From Dermabacteraceae bacterium TAE3-ERU5 (GTDB lineage Bacteria; Actinomycetota; Actinomycetes; Actinomycetales; Dermabacteraceae), in NCBI GenBank assembly GCA_019218375.1, contig JAHUUK010000004.1:1-64000 (forward strand): a stretch of 64,000 nucleotides of DNA, in the 5' to 3' direction. Positions 26,481 to 34,571 of this stretch are shown here, in pieces. A model generated the notes under the pieces. The model searched no databases. It saw nothing but the letters and a program-made list of their open reading frames with translations, and was not told where the DNA came from. The position numbers and the translations under genes were made by a program. Position 1 is the stretch's first letter. Each line of letters opens with the position of its first letter.

Positions 26481-26810
26481 GTGAAGAAGCGAAATCCCGG
26501 TCTGATTGCCGTTTATCTGATTCTGGCCGCCGCCTCGGTTTACTTCCTGTTCCAGCCGAACAGCAGCTGGATGTGGATGGTGGCGGGGGTGATCTCCCTC
26601 TCGGCACTGGCAGCCCAGCTGCTACCGCAACCGAAAGAGACCGACATTTCCGCGTTGCGGGAACTGAGCCACATCGAGAACCCTACCTCGCAGGAAATCA
26701 AGGAATACCGCAAGGCGAACCCCGGCACGTCGTTTTCCGAGGCGCTGATCGCGCTTAAGCGCGAACGTGCGGCTGCGCTGGGCGAGCATCCGGAAAATCC
26801 CCAGCAGTAG
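26481..26810 (+). CDS. Small membrane protein of unknown function
   Basis: 109 aa from GTG 26481, which follows AAGGAG by five bases. Two membrane helices (about 9-24 and 30-47) are separated by a short FQPNSSW turn; the C-terminal 60 residues are soluble and charged, with a helical RKANPGTSFSEALIALKRERAA segment. No family was recognised. It is monocistronic, between the leftward FAH gene and a rightward gene, with its own terminator. TTGCAA and TTTATG upstream could form a weak promoter. Confidence 0.8.
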   Translation: MKKRNPGLIAVYLILAAASVYFLFQPNSSWMWMVAGVISLSALAAQLLPQPKETDISALRELSHIENPTSQEIKEYRKANPGTSFSEALIALKRERAAALGEHPENPQQ

Positions 26811-26827
26811 TTGCGCTAACACTCACC

Positions 26828-26864
26828 GGCCCGCGAAAACGCATGAGTTTTCGCGGGCCTTTTA
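26828..26864 (+). terminator. Rho-independent terminator
   Basis: A perfect 13-bp stem (GGCCCGCGAAAAC and complement), 6-base loop and TTTTA follow the small membrane protein gene. Confidence 0.85.
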
Positions 26865-26886
26865 CGTTGCATACCCTAGTGGGGTG

Positions 26887-27882
26887 ATGCTCAGCGACTC
26901 TGCCGTTTCCGCCCCGTCCCCTTCCGTGCGGGGCAGCGCCTGGCTGCCGTCAGTGCTGCTGGGTGCCGACGAGGCGGCGGCAGCGGCGCGGGAGCACGCG
27001 CGGCGCGCGGATGAATTAACGGCCGGTCACCGGGAGCGTAAACAGCGCGGCGAGAAGCACGCGGTGGAGGATTTCCTTTACACCTACTATCCGTTTCCCC
27101 CGGCTAAGCTGCGCCGCTACCATCCGGGGTGGCGGGCGGCGATGCCCGCGCGGGGCGATTGCCCGGCCTGGTATCGCGTGCTCGGTGCCACGGAACTGGG
27201 CGCGGCCCGCGCAGCATCCTGCGATGCTGCCGCCGTTGACGGCGAGTTTTTCCAGGCCGACGTGGCGCTGTTTTTGCAGCGGCGCGGCGACGCCCTCCAC
27301 TACATTTACCGCCTGCTGACCGCCACGCGGGAACGGCGCAGTTCGTTCGACTGCTTTGGCCTGCACGAGTGGGCGATGGTTTATCGGCAGCAGCCGCGCC
27401 ACGATGCGCTGCCGCTGCGGATCGGGCGGGAGGCGACCGACGCTTTCGTGGAGCGCGAGAACCTGCGCTGCACCCACTTTGATGCGTTCCGTTTCTTCAC
27501 GCCCCCGGCGGTGCCGCTGAACGCCTATACGCCGACCAGGGAGCGGCAGCTGGAGCTGGATAATCCGGCCTGCCTGCACGCGAACATGGATCTGTATAAG
27601 TGGGCGATGAAGCTCAGCCCGCTGCTGCCGTCGGCCCTGGTGCTGGACTGTTTCGAGCTGGCGCGTGACGTGCGCGTGCTGGACATGGAGGCCTCCCCGT
27701 ACGATGTGCGCGGCCTGGGCTACGGGGTGGTGCCGATCGAGACCAGCGAGGGCAAGGCGGAATACGTGCGCAGGCAGCGTGGCCTGGCGGCCCGCGCCGA
27801 CGCTCTGCGCAAACGCATGGCGGAGGAGATCGCTTTGCCGGCGAAAGCCGCAGAGAAACTGATGCGCAGAGCGGAAGGCTAA
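26887..27882 (+). CDS. Actinobacterial conserved protein, often labelled '3-methyladenine DNA glycosylase'
   Basis: 331 aa from ATG 26887; the sequence upstream is the terminator of the previous gene. The soluble protein has HAVEDFLYTYYPF, LTATRERRSSFDCFGLHEWAMVY and a long run including HFDAFRFFTPPA, NPACLHANMDLYKWAMKLSPLLPS. It belongs to a conserved actinobacterial family that databases frequently name 3-methyladenine DNA glycosylase, but I see no helix-hairpin-helix or known glycosylase active site, so that name should not be taken as function. Conserved His, Asp and Arg residues suggest an enzyme. TACCCT at 26872-26877 may be its -10. Confidence 0.8.
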   Translation: MLSDSAVSAPSPSVRGSAWLPSVLLGADEAAAAAREHARRADELTAGHRERKQRGEKHAVEDFLYTYYPFPPAKLRRYHPGWRAAMPARGDCPAWYRVLGATELGAARAASCDAAAVDGEFFQADVALFLQRRGDALHYIYRLLTATRERRSSFDCFGLHEWAMVYRQQPRHDALPLRIGREATDAFVERENLRCTHFDAFRFFTPPAVPLNAYTPTRERQLELDNPACLHANMDLYKWAMKLSPLLPSALVLDCFELARDVRVLDMEASPYDVRGLGYGVVPIETSEGKAEYVRRQRGLAARADALRKRMAEEIALPAKAAEKLMRRAEG

Positions 27883-30740: not shown

Positions 30741-31829
30741 TCAGCTCACGAACTTGGTCATCCAGCCGTATTCGTCGGCGCTGCGGCCGTACTGGATGTT
30801 GAGCAGGCGCTCGCGGATCGCGAAGGTCTTTTCGGTCTGGGCGCCGTCACCGATCACGGTCTTGCCCTCACCGGTCAGGAACGCGCCGATGGGGGTGACT
30901 ACCGCTGCGGTCCCGCAGGCGAACATCTCCAGGATGTCGCCGGATTCGATGTCGGCCAGCACCTGCTTGAAGTTGAGGCGTTCCTCGCGCGGGGTCAGCC
31001 CCAGTTCTTCACCGATCTTGAGGATGGAAGCGCGGGTCACGCCCTCCAGGATCGAACCGGTCAGGGCCGGGGTGCAGAGCGAGCCGTCAGCGCGCACCGC
31101 GAACACGTTCATGCCGGAAAGTTCATCGATGAACGTGCGCGTTTCGGAATCGAGGAACATGACCTCATCGGCCCCGTTCTCCACGGCCTCCGCCTTCCCC
31201 AGCATGGAGGAGGCGTAGTTGCCGCCGCACTTGGCCGCACCGGTGCCGCCCGCTCCCGCGCGGGAGAACTTCTCGCTCGCCCAAACGGTGAGGGGCTTGA
31301 TGCCGCTCTTGAAGTAGGAGGCAGCGGGAGAGGCGATGCAGTAGTACTCAACCTGCTTGGAGGGGCGCACGCCCAGGAACGCTTCGCTGCCGAACATGAA
31401 CGGGCGCAGGTAGAGGGAGGATTCGCCGCCGCTAGGCACCCAATCCTTATCGATCTCAAGCAGCTGGCGCACCGATTCCAGGTACAGTTCAACGGGCAGT
31501 TCCGGCAGCGCCAGGCGGCGTGCGGAAGCCTGCAGGCGCTGGGCGTTGCGTTCCGGGCGGAACGACCACACAGAACCGTCAGCGTGGCGGTATGCCTTCA
31601 TGCCCTCGAAGATTTCCTGCGCGTAGTGGAGGACCCCCGCCGCGGGCGAAATGGTGATCGGGCCAAACGGCATAACCTGCGCGTCGTGCCACCCGTTTTC
31701 CGGGTTCCAAGAAATCCGCACCATGTGATCGGTGAAGTTGTCCCCGAAGCCGGGGTTAGCGAGGATGGCCTCGCGTTCCTCCTGCGTGGCGGGGTTTTCG
31801 TTCCGGGTCACCTTGAAAGTCAGGGACAT
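30741..31829 (-). CDS. ilvE: Branched-chain amino acid aminotransferase
   Basis: 362 aa fold-type IV PLP enzyme of the long BCAT group. The PLP Lys is in AAKCGGNYASS; other signatures are GVLHYAQEIFEGMKAYR and LDSETRTFIDELSGMNVF. It carries out the last step of Leu, Ile and Val synthesis, or the first of their breakdown. ATG 31829 follows GGAGG. The gene lies 91 bases downstream of a KARI-like gene on the same strand, suggesting an ilv-type transcription unit. No leader-peptide attenuator was seen. Confidence 0.95.
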   Translation of the reverse strand: MSLTFKVTRNENPATQEEREAILANPGFGDNFTDHMVRISWNPENGWHDAQVMPFGPITISPAAGVLHYAQEIFEGMKAYRHADGSVWSFRPERNAQRLQASARRLALPELPVELYLESVRQLLEIDKDWVPSGGESSLYLRPFMFGSEAFLGVRPSKQVEYYCIASPAASYFKSGIKPLTVWASEKFSRAGAGGTGAAKCGGNYASSMLGKAEAVENGADEVMFLDSETRTFIDELSGMNVFAVRADGSLCTPALTGSILEGVTRASILKIGEELGLTPREERLNFKQVLADIESGDILEMFACGTAAVVTPIGAFLTGEGKTVIGDGAQTEKTFAIRERLLNIQYGRSADEYGWMTKFVS

Positions 31830-31920: not shown

Positions 31921-32805
31921 TTAGCGGCCGCCGCGCAGGGCAAACTTTTGCCGCAGCTCAGCCTGCTGCTTACCGTTTTCGTCCTGCTCCTCCTGCTTTT
32001 GCGACGGGGCAACCTTCCCCTCGCGGATTTCGGCCAGGATTCCGCTCAGCCTTTCCAGCGCGGCGTCATCCAGCACCTGCGCGCCGTAGCCGTGGGCCGG
32101 GGCAGAGCCTTCCGCGAGTTTCGCGGCGGCGGTCACGAGCTGGCGGTTAAGCAGCAGATGTGCAGTTTCGGGAGAATACCCCGCCGCGGTCAGGACTGCG
32201 AAACCGGCCTCCACGGTGCGGGCCATTACGCCCTGCAGCACGGCGCGCTCACAGAAAACGGACGCGGCGGCGGTATCGCGCACGCTGCCGCGCACCGCTC
32301 CCGCGCGCAGCACGCCGAGCGCTTTCGCGTAGGAAAGCACCAGATCGAAGTCGTCACCGGCAACCAGCGCGGGCACTCCCCTGCCCGCGGCGTACTCGCT
32401 ACGCATGCCGGGCTCCGCGCAGATCAGGGCCGACCCTACGCCTTCGGGGAGCTGTAGCGCGCCCGTCAGCAGCGCCTCAGCATCGGTGAGTAGCAGCGTT
32501 TTTCCGGGGCGCAGCGCCTCCCGCAGCGCGCCCTGGAAGAGCGCCACCTGTTCCTGGCCCGGCACCAGCAGGGCGATTAGGTCGGCCCAGCCAGCGGCGT
32601 CGGCCGGGTCGGTCACCTTAAAGCCCTCGTCTGCGGCATCTTCGCGGTGGGAAGAATCTTCCGGCAGTGCCACTTTCACCGCCACGCCGCTATCGCGCAG
32701 GTTCAGCGCGTGCTGGCGCGCAACTTTACCGAAGCCGATGATCGCTACCTTGGCGGCCTGTACCAGGCTCAGGTCAGCATCGTCGTCGTAAAACACTTCT
32801 GCCAC
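31921..32805 (-). CDS. Degenerate ketol-acid reductoisomerase-like protein (ilvC paralogue, probable pseudoenzyme)
   Basis: 294 aa, GTG start after AAGGAGC. The N-terminus (AEVFYDDDADLSLVQ...KVAIIGFG...HALNLRDSGV) and GRGVPALVAG, LSYAKALG match class I KARI well. But the usual GYGSQGHAH is GFGKVARQHA (third Gly lost), the AHGFNIHF region is TDAEALLTGA (catalytic His lost), APKGPGH is reduced to AEPG (catalytic Lys lost), and of the DxxxE metal site only Glu remains (SVFCERAVL). The C-terminal domain is short and lacks the ExxxE ligands (LLLNRQLV), ending in a Gln/Glu-rich tail. It probably cannot catalyse the KARI reaction. The reading frame is intact and clean, so it is not a recent pseudogene. 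Confidence 0.88.
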   Translation of the reverse strand: MAEVFYDDDADLSLVQAAKVAIIGFGKVARQHALNLRDSGVAVKVALPEDSSHREDAADEGFKVTDPADAAGWADLIALLVPGQEQVALFQGALREALRPGKTLLLTDAEALLTGALQLPEGVGSALICAEPGMRSEYAAGRGVPALVAGDDFDLVLSYAKALGVLRAGAVRGSVRDTAAASVFCERAVLQGVMARTVEAGFAVLTAAGYSPETAHLLLNRQLVTAAAKLAEGSAPAHGYGAQVLDDAALERLSGILAEIREGKVAPSQKQEEQDENGKQQAELRQKFALRGGR

Positions 32806-32870
32806 GGGTGCTCCTTAAAAGATTACCGACAAAATGCGCAGCTAGCACCATATTAGAACCGCGGGCACGA

Positions 32871-32906
32871 AAAAGACCCGTCCGTGTGTTCACGGACGGG
32901 TCTTTT
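32871..32906. terminator. Terminator of the AGCS transporter gene
   Basis: A perfect 16-bp stem (AAAAGACCCGTCCGTG and complement) with a TGTT loop lies just past the stop of the leftward transporter gene; the minus strand ends the hairpin in TTTT. Confidence 0.85.
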
Positions 32907-32918
32907 CACTAAAAGGCG

Positions 32919-34571
32919 TTACTTAACCTGCGGTATTTCACCGGTTTCGGTGGATGCCTCCACGCCGCTGCCCGGTTCTACCGGGTAGTCGGGGTCGGCT
33001 TCCAGCAGGGCACGCACAGATTCGATCTGCCCGGTGGCGGTGTCCTCTTCCGCCTGCGCCGCACGGATCTGTTCCTTGGTCGGTTCATGATCGCCCATGC
33101 CTACGGCAAGCTCGGGATCGTCCACCGGCTCGATTACGCCAACATCAACACGGGTCTTGTGGCGCAGGATCTCCATGCGCAGGATCTTGCTGAGCACGTA
33201 CAGGCCAACCAGGTTAGGAATGGTCATCAGGAAGAACGTGGAGTCGGAGAACGCGATCACGGAATCCAGCGAGATAGCGGAGCCGACCACTACCGCCAGG
33301 ATCCAAACCACCTGGTAAACCTTGGTCACGACCTGGCTGCGGCCGAACAGGAACTCGGCGGCCAGCTGACCGTAGTAGGAGTAGGACAGCACGGTGGAGA
33401 ACGCGAACAGCGCAACCGCAACCATCAGCACGTAGGGGAACCAGGCAGTGACGGTGGAGAACGCGGAGGCGGTCATCGTAATACCGTCGATGTCCTCGCC
33501 GTTCGTCTTGTAAACACCGGTCACGGTGATCGCCAGCGCGGTCAGCGAGCAGATGATGACGGAGTCCACGAGCGGCTCCCACATCGCGGTGTAACCCTCG
33601 GTAGCGGGCTCCTTGGTCTTGGCGGCGGAGTGCGCGATGCCTGCGGTGCCGACGCCTGCCGCGTTGGAGAACAGGGCACGCTGAATACCGATGATGGCCA
33701 CGCCAACCACGCCGCCCTGCACGCCCTCGGGGTTAATCGCGGACGAGAAGATGGTGCCGATTGCGGCGGGGATTTCGGCCGCGTGTACAACCAGAATGGC
33801 GATAACGCACAGGAAGTAGATGATCGCCATGAGCGGGGTGATCTTCGCGGTCCAGCGGGCGATGGAAGAAATGCCACCCAGGATCACGATGGCGGCCAGA
33901 ACCGCCATGATGACGCCGATAACCCACTTGTTATCTACCAGGAAGTCGCTACCGAGCTGGGTCGAAAGGATCGAAGCCGCCTGGTTTGCCTGGAACAGGT
34001 TACCCGCGCCGAACACGCCGATCAGGGTGAAGATCGAGTAAGCGATGGCCAGGCCCATACCGGTTTTCTTCCACCCGATTTCGGCAAAACCGTTCTTCAG
34101 GTAGTACATGGGGCCACCGGCGGTGGTGCCGTCCTCGGAAATTTCGCGGTACTTAACGCCCATCGTCGCTTCGGCCATCTTCACGCTCATCGCGAGGAAA
34201 CCGAAGAGGATGATCCACAGCGCAGCACCGGGGCCGCCCATCGAAATAGCGACGGCCACACCGGCGATGTTGCCGAGACCGACGGTGCCCGACAGTTCCG
34301 TAGCGAGCGCCTGGAACGAGCTAACCTCGCCCGGGTCGGTCTTGCGGGTGAAGCGACCGCGAATCACGTCTAGCGAATGCGCCATGCCGGTGATCGGCTG
34401 GAAACGCAGCCACACCGTCAAGAAGATAGCGCCCGCCATCAGCCAGAGCACGATGAGGGGAATCTGCACCCCACCGATCTGTGGCGAATAGAAAACGATG
34501 CTAGATAGCTTGTCCGCAATCGGCGCGAACCACTCAGCCAAGAAAGCGTCGATACTGCCGTTGTCAGGCAA
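32919..34571 (-). CDS. Sodium:alanine symporter (AGCS) family transporter
   Basis: 550 aa. About ten membrane helices and the AGCS hallmark GLGNIAGVAVAISMGGPGAALWII (key residues G-x-G-N-I-x-G-V). It imports Ala/Gly-type amino acids with Na+ across the cytoplasmic membrane; exact substrates are not predictable. The C-terminal 80 residues are acidic and cytoplasmic. Start TTG 34571 follows GGAGAGGA by six bases. The gene is monocistronic with its own terminator and a good promoter about 190 bases upstream. Confidence 0.92.
   Translation of the reverse strand: MPDNGSIDAFLAEWFAPIADKLSSIVFYSPQIGGVQIPLIVLWLMAGAIFLTVWLRFQPITGMAHSLDVIRGRFTRKTDPGEVSSFQALATELSGTVGLGNIAGVAVAISMGGPGAALWIILFGFLAMSVKMAEATMGVKYREISEDGTTAGGPMYYLKNGFAEIGWKKTGMGLAIAYSIFTLIGVFGAGNLFQANQAASILSTQLGSDFLVDNKWVIGVIMAVLAAIVILGGISSIARWTAKITPLMAIIYFLCVIAILVVHAAEIPAAIGTIFSSAINPEGVQGGVVGVAIIGIQRALFSNAAGVGTAGIAHSAAKTKEPATEGYTAMWEPLVDSVIICSLTALAITVTGVYKTNGEDIDGITMTASAFSTVTAWFPYVLMVAVALFAFSTVLSYSYYGQLAAEFLFGRSQVVTKVYQVVWILAVVVGSAISLDSVIAFSDSTFFLMTIPNLVGLYVLSKILRMEILRHKTRVDVGVIEPVDDPELAVGMGDHEPTKEQIRAAQAEEDTATGQIESVRALLEADPDYPVEPGSGVEASTETGEIPQVK

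Follow-up and report, generated by a model that had tools for sequence, protein, structure and literature searches.

Known relatives of the KARI family

Class I ketol-acid reductoisomerase (KARI; IlvC, EC 1.1.1.86; structures 4ypo and 6jx2) is the described enzyme that the protein reported here resembles most. The two share a homologous Rossmann domain and part of the C-terminal domain, KARIs are the best fold matches, and a normal ilvC occupies the same chromosomal slot in related genomes. Class I KARIs are about 335-343 amino acids long, whereas the KARI-like protein has 294, lacks His108, Lys131, Asp191, Glu227, Glu231 and the Ser252 loop, has a variable Glu195, scores below all equivalog cut-offs and no longer has the pathway encoded around it.

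IlvC can also act as a ketopantoate reductase. This has been shown for C. glutamicum (Merkamm 2003, cited in PMC4353338); IlvC reduces ketopantoate in Buchnera (PMC4306246), and in B. subtilis it is one of three enzymes that do so (PMC11487621). An ilvC kept for pantothenate would fit the set of genes retained here, with panB and panC present. So far as dual function has been reported, however, those enzymes have retained the active site of KARI, and the genus studied here has a PanE-family protein as well.

BurG, a cyclopropanol synthase of the KARI family in which Asn48 and Asp51 exclude the NADP phosphate (PMC9359912), is an example of the KARI fold redirected to a new job, and like the KARI-like protein it has an acidic residue in the cofactor phosphate loop. 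It differs in having both Mg2+ ions and catalysis, and in belonging to a secondary-metabolite cluster (PMC9359912). PanE/ApbA and relatives of the D-mandelate dehydrogenase type belong to the same wide Rossmann reductase superfamily and may overlap in substrate, but the KARI-like protein has no PanE/ApbA match and a separate PanE-family gene is present in the genome.

The KARI-like gene and its domain matches

The window, meaning the whole stretch of 64,000 nucleotides that was analyzed, belongs to a genome of 1.92 Mb (96% complete) from a genus of Dermabacteraceae with two known species, the sister species being Dermabacteraceae bacterium TAE3-ERU27 (G001; contig JAHUUL010000002, 582,797 bases). 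The KARI-like gene, called ilvC* below, lies at 31921-32805 on the minus strand and has 294 codons, a GTG start and a TAA stop; across the same interval the plus strand contains stops. A Shine-Dalgarno sequence, AAGGAG, is found upstream of the GTG (32811-32816, minus strand) and is identical in the sister species. The assignment of the gene as derived from ilvC is based on the open reading frame, Pfam and structure matches, the orthologue in the sister species (G001/L007) and its position, which is that of ilvC.

Three segments can be distinguished. Codons 1-170 (32296-32805, minus strand) encode the Rossmann (KARI_N) domain with its GFGKVA loop, modeled with pLDDT values mostly of 80-95 and showing a pN/pS of 0.04-0.08. 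Codons 171-258 (32032-32295, minus strand) encode what alignment and model indicate is a shortened remnant of the KARI C-terminal domain with the SxSDTAE loop deleted (pN/pS 0.105), and codons 259-294 (31924-32031, minus strand) a Gln/Glu-rich tail of low model confidence that is unconserved between the two species.

In Pfam, KARI_N (PF07991) matched residues 16-169 with an E value of 2.7e-30 (105.6 bits, cut-off 20.6). A complete KARI_C domain is missing, PF01450 covering only residues 183-217, or model positions 9-43 of 144. The protein lies far under the NCBIfam KARI equivalog cut-offs (NF004017, 173.1 versus 336 bits; TIGR00465, 123.1 versus 226.15 bits), and it matched neither ApbA (PF02558) nor ApbA_C (PF08546) in Pfam at E values up to 0.1, nor any PanE/ApbA model in NCBIfam. 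Among solved structures, the KARI of M. tuberculosis (4ypo, 1.6e-44) and that of C. glutamicum (6jx2) come closest by sequence. The E values, the 95% identical orthologue in a second species and the gene position exclude chance as the source of the relationship to KARI. The initial annotation had proposed an intact frame related to class I KARI with a shortened C-terminal domain; the KARI_N and KARI_C matches bear this out, and the frame lies on the minus strand.

Active site residues

Residues were mapped on an alignment with 30 KARIs of other actinobacteria obtained by a database scan, and part of the 45 KARIs from other Dermabacteraceae genomes was also covered. Relative to the 30 actinobacterial enzymes, the catalytic His108 is replaced by Asp and Lys131 by Glu, Gly132 and His135 are deleted, the Mg2+ ligands Asp191, Glu227 and Glu231 are replaced by Ser, Leu and Gln, and the SxSDT loop is gone (S250, S252, D253 and T254 deleted). 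The one remaining metal ligand, Glu195, corresponds to codon 186 (32248-32250, minus strand), which encodes Glu in the window and Ala in the sister species. Both species show the active-site losses. The alignment thus agrees with the losses listed in the initial annotation, namely the His, the Lys, one Asp ligand and both C-terminal Glu ligands, and adds that the E195 ligand survives in the window protein. The acid/base residues are missing, as are the Mg2+ ligands apart from a single one that is itself variable, and we therefore infer that the KARI-like protein cannot carry out ketol-acid isomeroreduction.

Conservation outside the active site is considerable: 77 of the 159 near-invariant columns (the same residue in 28 or more of the 30 KARIs) are kept, including 11 of 11 near-invariant positions within the first 15 residues. 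The nucleotide-binding loop GxGxxG reads GFGKVA, the third Gly being replaced by Ala (G29A) as had been noted at the outset. GxGxxA is a common variant of the dinucleotide-binding loop, so the absence of this Gly is not decisive. Three phosphate-loop residues (G50D, K52S and S53H) are unusual among actinobacterial KARIs, and Asp83, invariant in the 30 KARIs, is Gly. Together these four changes may mean that dinucleotide binding is altered or even lost. An Arg-to-Pro change in the phosphate loop was considered as a marker of NADH use and dropped, Pro48 being common among actinobacterial KARIs.

Predicted structure

An AlphaFold2 model of the KARI-like protein was built on a 32-sequence alignment. 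The Rossmann domain was predicted with confidence and the C-terminal domain was weak and shortened (pTM 0.66), while a normal KARI placed first in the same alignment gave a complete C-terminal domain and a pTM of 0.86; the C-terminal helices of this control are missing from the KARI-like model. Foldseek searches with the model returned the same KARI structures as best matches, in a setting where the KARI-rich alignment pulls the predicted model toward the KARI fold. The Rossmann domain is the best conserved as well as the best predicted portion of the protein.

This conservation of the Rossmann domain would suit a catalyst whose substrate is new and unrelated; an NAD-dependent enzyme, reductase or dehydrogenase, from the wider 6-phosphogluconate dehydrogenase superfamily would be one example. 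The Asp at position 50, a phosphate-loop residue, is reminiscent of BurG and its preference for NAD (PMC9359912), and KARIs are promiscuous reductases, some of which reduce pyrroline-5-carboxylate (PMC4353338). BurG, however, retains both Mg2+ ions, which the KARI-like protein cannot do, and no biosynthetic cluster is evident around ilvC*; we regard such a catalyst as quite improbable.

Distribution, gene order and pathway loss

The KARI-like gene is present in both species of the genus, and neither has a further KARI. The initial annotation had asked whether a normal ilvC exists elsewhere; none was found in the window genome, where the search returned two weak Rossmann matches, one of them like D-lactate dehydrogenase and the other weakly like unrelated NAD(P)-binding dehydrogenases. 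Each of the other 45 Dermabacteraceae genomes has a KARI, about 40% identical to the KARI-like protein. Pairwise identity among the KARIs of ten sampled relatives is 66-94%, but drops to 38-42% against the KARI-like protein, while the distances of ilvE, gatB and agcS in the genus are ordinary. A KARI above the family cut-off is present in 285 of the 297 genomes of the order; ten genomes have none, and two, the window genome and G049, have one below the cut-off. The suggestion of a conserved, non-catalytic IlvC relative adjoining ilvE therefore holds for one other known species, but not as a widespread family.

Two observations were made on KARI genes in other genomes. In G049 (an order genome of 1.8 Mb) the KARI appears as two half matches, probably owing to a frameshift, and panB was not found. 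A KARI in a Nocardioidaceae metagenome-assembled genome (L028:2252-3268; JACCUS010000168.1) has Asp191 changed to Ala, His135 to Trp and His230 to Thr, with the SxSDTAE loop partly deleted; it is followed by serA, ilvE, an FAH hydrolase gene and gltX, with no ilvBN directly upstream, and is possibly a separate, less extreme instance of an ilvC that was altered yet retained next to ilvE.

In the relatives, the gene order is gatA-gatB-agcS-ilvD-ilvB-ilvN-ilvC-serA-leuB-ilvE (complete in L146; agcS, KARI and ilvE follow the same order in the others where seen). The order in the window is gatC-gatA-gatB-agcS-ilvC*-ilvE. The amino-acid/sodium symporter gene agcS (32919-34571, minus strand), identified by Pfam/NCBIfam and gene order, is the upstream neighbor in the relatives as well and marks the ancestral slot, and ilvE (30741-31829, minus strand), which encodes a branched-chain aminotransferase (468 bits, cut-off 307) and has an ordinary rate of change, lies 91 nt downstream of ilvC*. 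Comparison of the two orders indicates that ilvD, ilvB and ilvN on one side and serA and leuB on the other were removed while ilvC stayed. In a phylogenetic tree the KARI-like protein fell among the Dermabacteraceae KARIs with support of 95/94. The stem branch of the KARI-like proteins is very long and saturated, so that its length is not meaningful as a number; the distance between the proteins of the two species is 0.06 changes per site. Gene order and tree identify ilvC* as the native ilvC of the genus, altered where it stood; a horizontal origin was rejected because the protein groups with Dermabacteraceae KARIs and the gene occupies the ilvC slot.

The genus has lost the pathway for valine, leucine and isoleucine synthesis. 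No ilvD was found in the two genomes of the genus; ilvD, ilvB and leuC are all present in seven relatives. Candidates for a residual pathway were rejected, the ilvB-like match being a pyruvate oxidase and the leuC match scoring far below the cut-off, in a frame whose 917 aa correspond to an aconitase in size. In one relative (G044:C1:768046-769811), ilvD appears as two matches in different frames, possibly because of a frameshift. The genes of a lost pathway usually go too; ilvC* was kept in place, stripped of its chemistry and placed under new constraint.

Selection on ilvC*

Selection was measured between two close species only, hence over a short time. Over the whole gene this comparison gave 37 synonymous and 21 non-synonymous changes, or a pN/pS of 0.21, against about 100 non-synonymous changes expected under neutrality (P 5e-9). 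Residues 1-258 contain 34 synonymous and 7 non-synonymous changes (pN/pS 0.078) and the tail (residues 259-294) 3 and 14 (pN/pS 1.44); the boundary at 258 was picked after the data had been seen, and the whole-gene value is independent of that choice. Neighboring genes have dN/dS values of 0.02-0.06, several times lower than the pN/pS of ilvC*, which is therefore less constrained than housekeeping genes, yet clearly constrained. Residues 1-258 differ by six substitutions, three of which (F90C, S174D and E186A) affect sites that are invariant or nearly invariant in other KARIs, so the constraint itself has shifted.

The initial annotation had named a decaying copy as the alternative to a conserved protein, and the long stem branch, the pN/pS several-fold above that of the neighbors and a freely evolving tail are features one could expect of a functionless gene that became fixed at some point before or after pathway loss and now awaits deletion; pathway and active site are, after all, both gone. 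Free decay is contradicted by the whole-gene pN/pS of 0.21 and the value of 0.08 over residues 1-258. The frame is unbroken by stop or frameshift in both species, and start, Shine-Dalgarno and 5' flank are conserved between two independent assemblies; moreover, the flanking genes were cleanly deleted while ilvC* stayed. The gene as a dying relic is thus already disfavored, and we consider it improbable. A protein with these changes is maintained for a purpose other than KARI catalysis, and has probably taken on another job.

Our preferred reading, held tentatively and at somewhat less than even odds, is that the protein is an exapted Rossmann-fold protein without KARI chemistry, which would serve as a sensor, regulator or scaffold of the pseudoenzyme type in branched-chain 2-ketoacid metabolism. 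The catalytic residues are lost, the fold is kept and the gene is under selection, the features by which pseudoenzymes are recognized. After the pathway was lost, ilvC stayed between agcS and ilvE; a burst of change removed the KARI active site, and purifying selection now acts on the gene as one that encodes a protein. Such a protein would work by binding a dinucleotide and a partner, for which IlvE, encoded adjacently, would be the most obvious candidate. Counting against this are the possible loss of dinucleotide binding through the phosphate-loop changes and D83G, and the lack of an evident reason to keep a mere scaffold. A full-text literature search for KARI together with 'pseudoenzyme' returned no paper; if the protein is one, it would be the KARI family's first described pseudoenzyme as far as we know.

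Possible relation to pantothenate synthesis

Exactly two genes of the ilv/leu cluster were kept, ilvC* and ilvE, and panB and panC are present in the genus and strongly conserved (pN/pS 0.013 and 0.044). Since KARIs can double as ketopantoate reductase, this set of retained genes points to a possible connection with the synthesis of pantothenate from valine. The main rival to an exapted binding protein is that the protein has dropped the isomerase half of the reaction and become a metal-free reductase of ketopantoate or another branched 2-ketoacid, which we think rather unlikely. Imported valine would be converted to 2-ketoisovalerate by IlvE, to ketopantoate by PanB, to pantoate by the KARI-like protein and to pantothenate by PanC. 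New Arg residues at positions 187 and 221, beside the lost Mg ligands, would then take over from Mg2+ in holding the substrate carboxylate. The strongest point in favor of a reductase is that the two genes retained from the cluster are those useful for the conversion of valine to pantoate, and reduction and isomerization by KARI are separable in vitro (PMC4353338). Against it, each polar residue of the KARI active site is lost or variable, all metal ligands included; there is no evident acid catalyst, and the SxSDTAE loop has been deleted; once-invariant sites, the last Glu among them, are free to vary; and the proposal for the Arg residues is built on sequence positions.

The family background bears on the same question. 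Of the 45 other Dermabacteraceae, 43 lack the PanE-type C-terminal domain, and panB and panC were present in the sampled ones; their IlvC therefore probably serves in both pathways, a point in favor of the reductase. The genus itself has a further candidate for this step, a PanE-family protein (L168:7113-8051; G000:C1, about 255-256 kb) that is intact by alignment and, within the Dermabacteraceae, is found only in this genus apart from weak matches in G002 and G020. By its sequence it could relieve the KARI-like protein of ketopantoate reduction, and its presence argues against the reductase. Its closest structures are 3wfi and 2ew2, which we take to be of the Enterococcus D-mandelate/D-2-hydroxyacid dehydrogenase branch. 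Members of that branch were misannotated as ketopantoate reductases. The protein is 81% identical between the two species with a pS of 0.50, and lies in a patch of raised divergence (nicotinate phosphoribosyltransferase-PanE-MFS transporter) that looks as after recombination and was probably exchanged between strains. The nearest structures and the patchy divergence weaken the case that the PanE-family protein settles ketopantoate reduction, and to that extent speak for the reductase.

Stated most specifically, a KARI that lost both Mg2+ ions and the isomerase chemistry, once its host had given up making branched-chain amino acids, would have become a metal-free reductase of 2-ketoacids, most likely one dedicated to ketopantoate, kept beside ilvE for pantothenate from imported valine; we hold this to be unlikely. 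It would be a case of a two-step, two-metal enzyme reduced to one step without metal. C. glutamicum also matches ApbA_C, though ilvC is reported to be the sole source of its ketopantoate reductase activity (PMC4353338). Whether panB occurs only together with a KARI or a PanE was considered across the order: four of the ten order genomes without a KARI have kept panB (G118, G131, G160 and G236), and within 14-19 kb around panB these four gave no match to the PanE-family protein of the window genus.

Upstream region and neighboring genes

A 17-bp hairpin followed by a T run (32870-32907, minus strand; z -3.9) lies between agcS and ilvC* and is a probable terminator, which suggests that ilvC* begins a new transcription unit. 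A simple scan found no sigma-70 consensus promoter, and no Rfam element was found near the gene. The octamer GCTAGCTG, common to both upstream regions, was considered as an operator and rejected, as it occurs 3 times in the window versus 2 expected by chance.

Elsewhere in the window, an open reading frame at 26767-27882 encodes 371 amino acids with no Pfam match. Its counterpart in the sister species appears as two overlapping matches (split), and in the relatives it sits between an FAH hydrolase gene and a DEAD/DUF3516 helicase gene, at about 56-59% identity.
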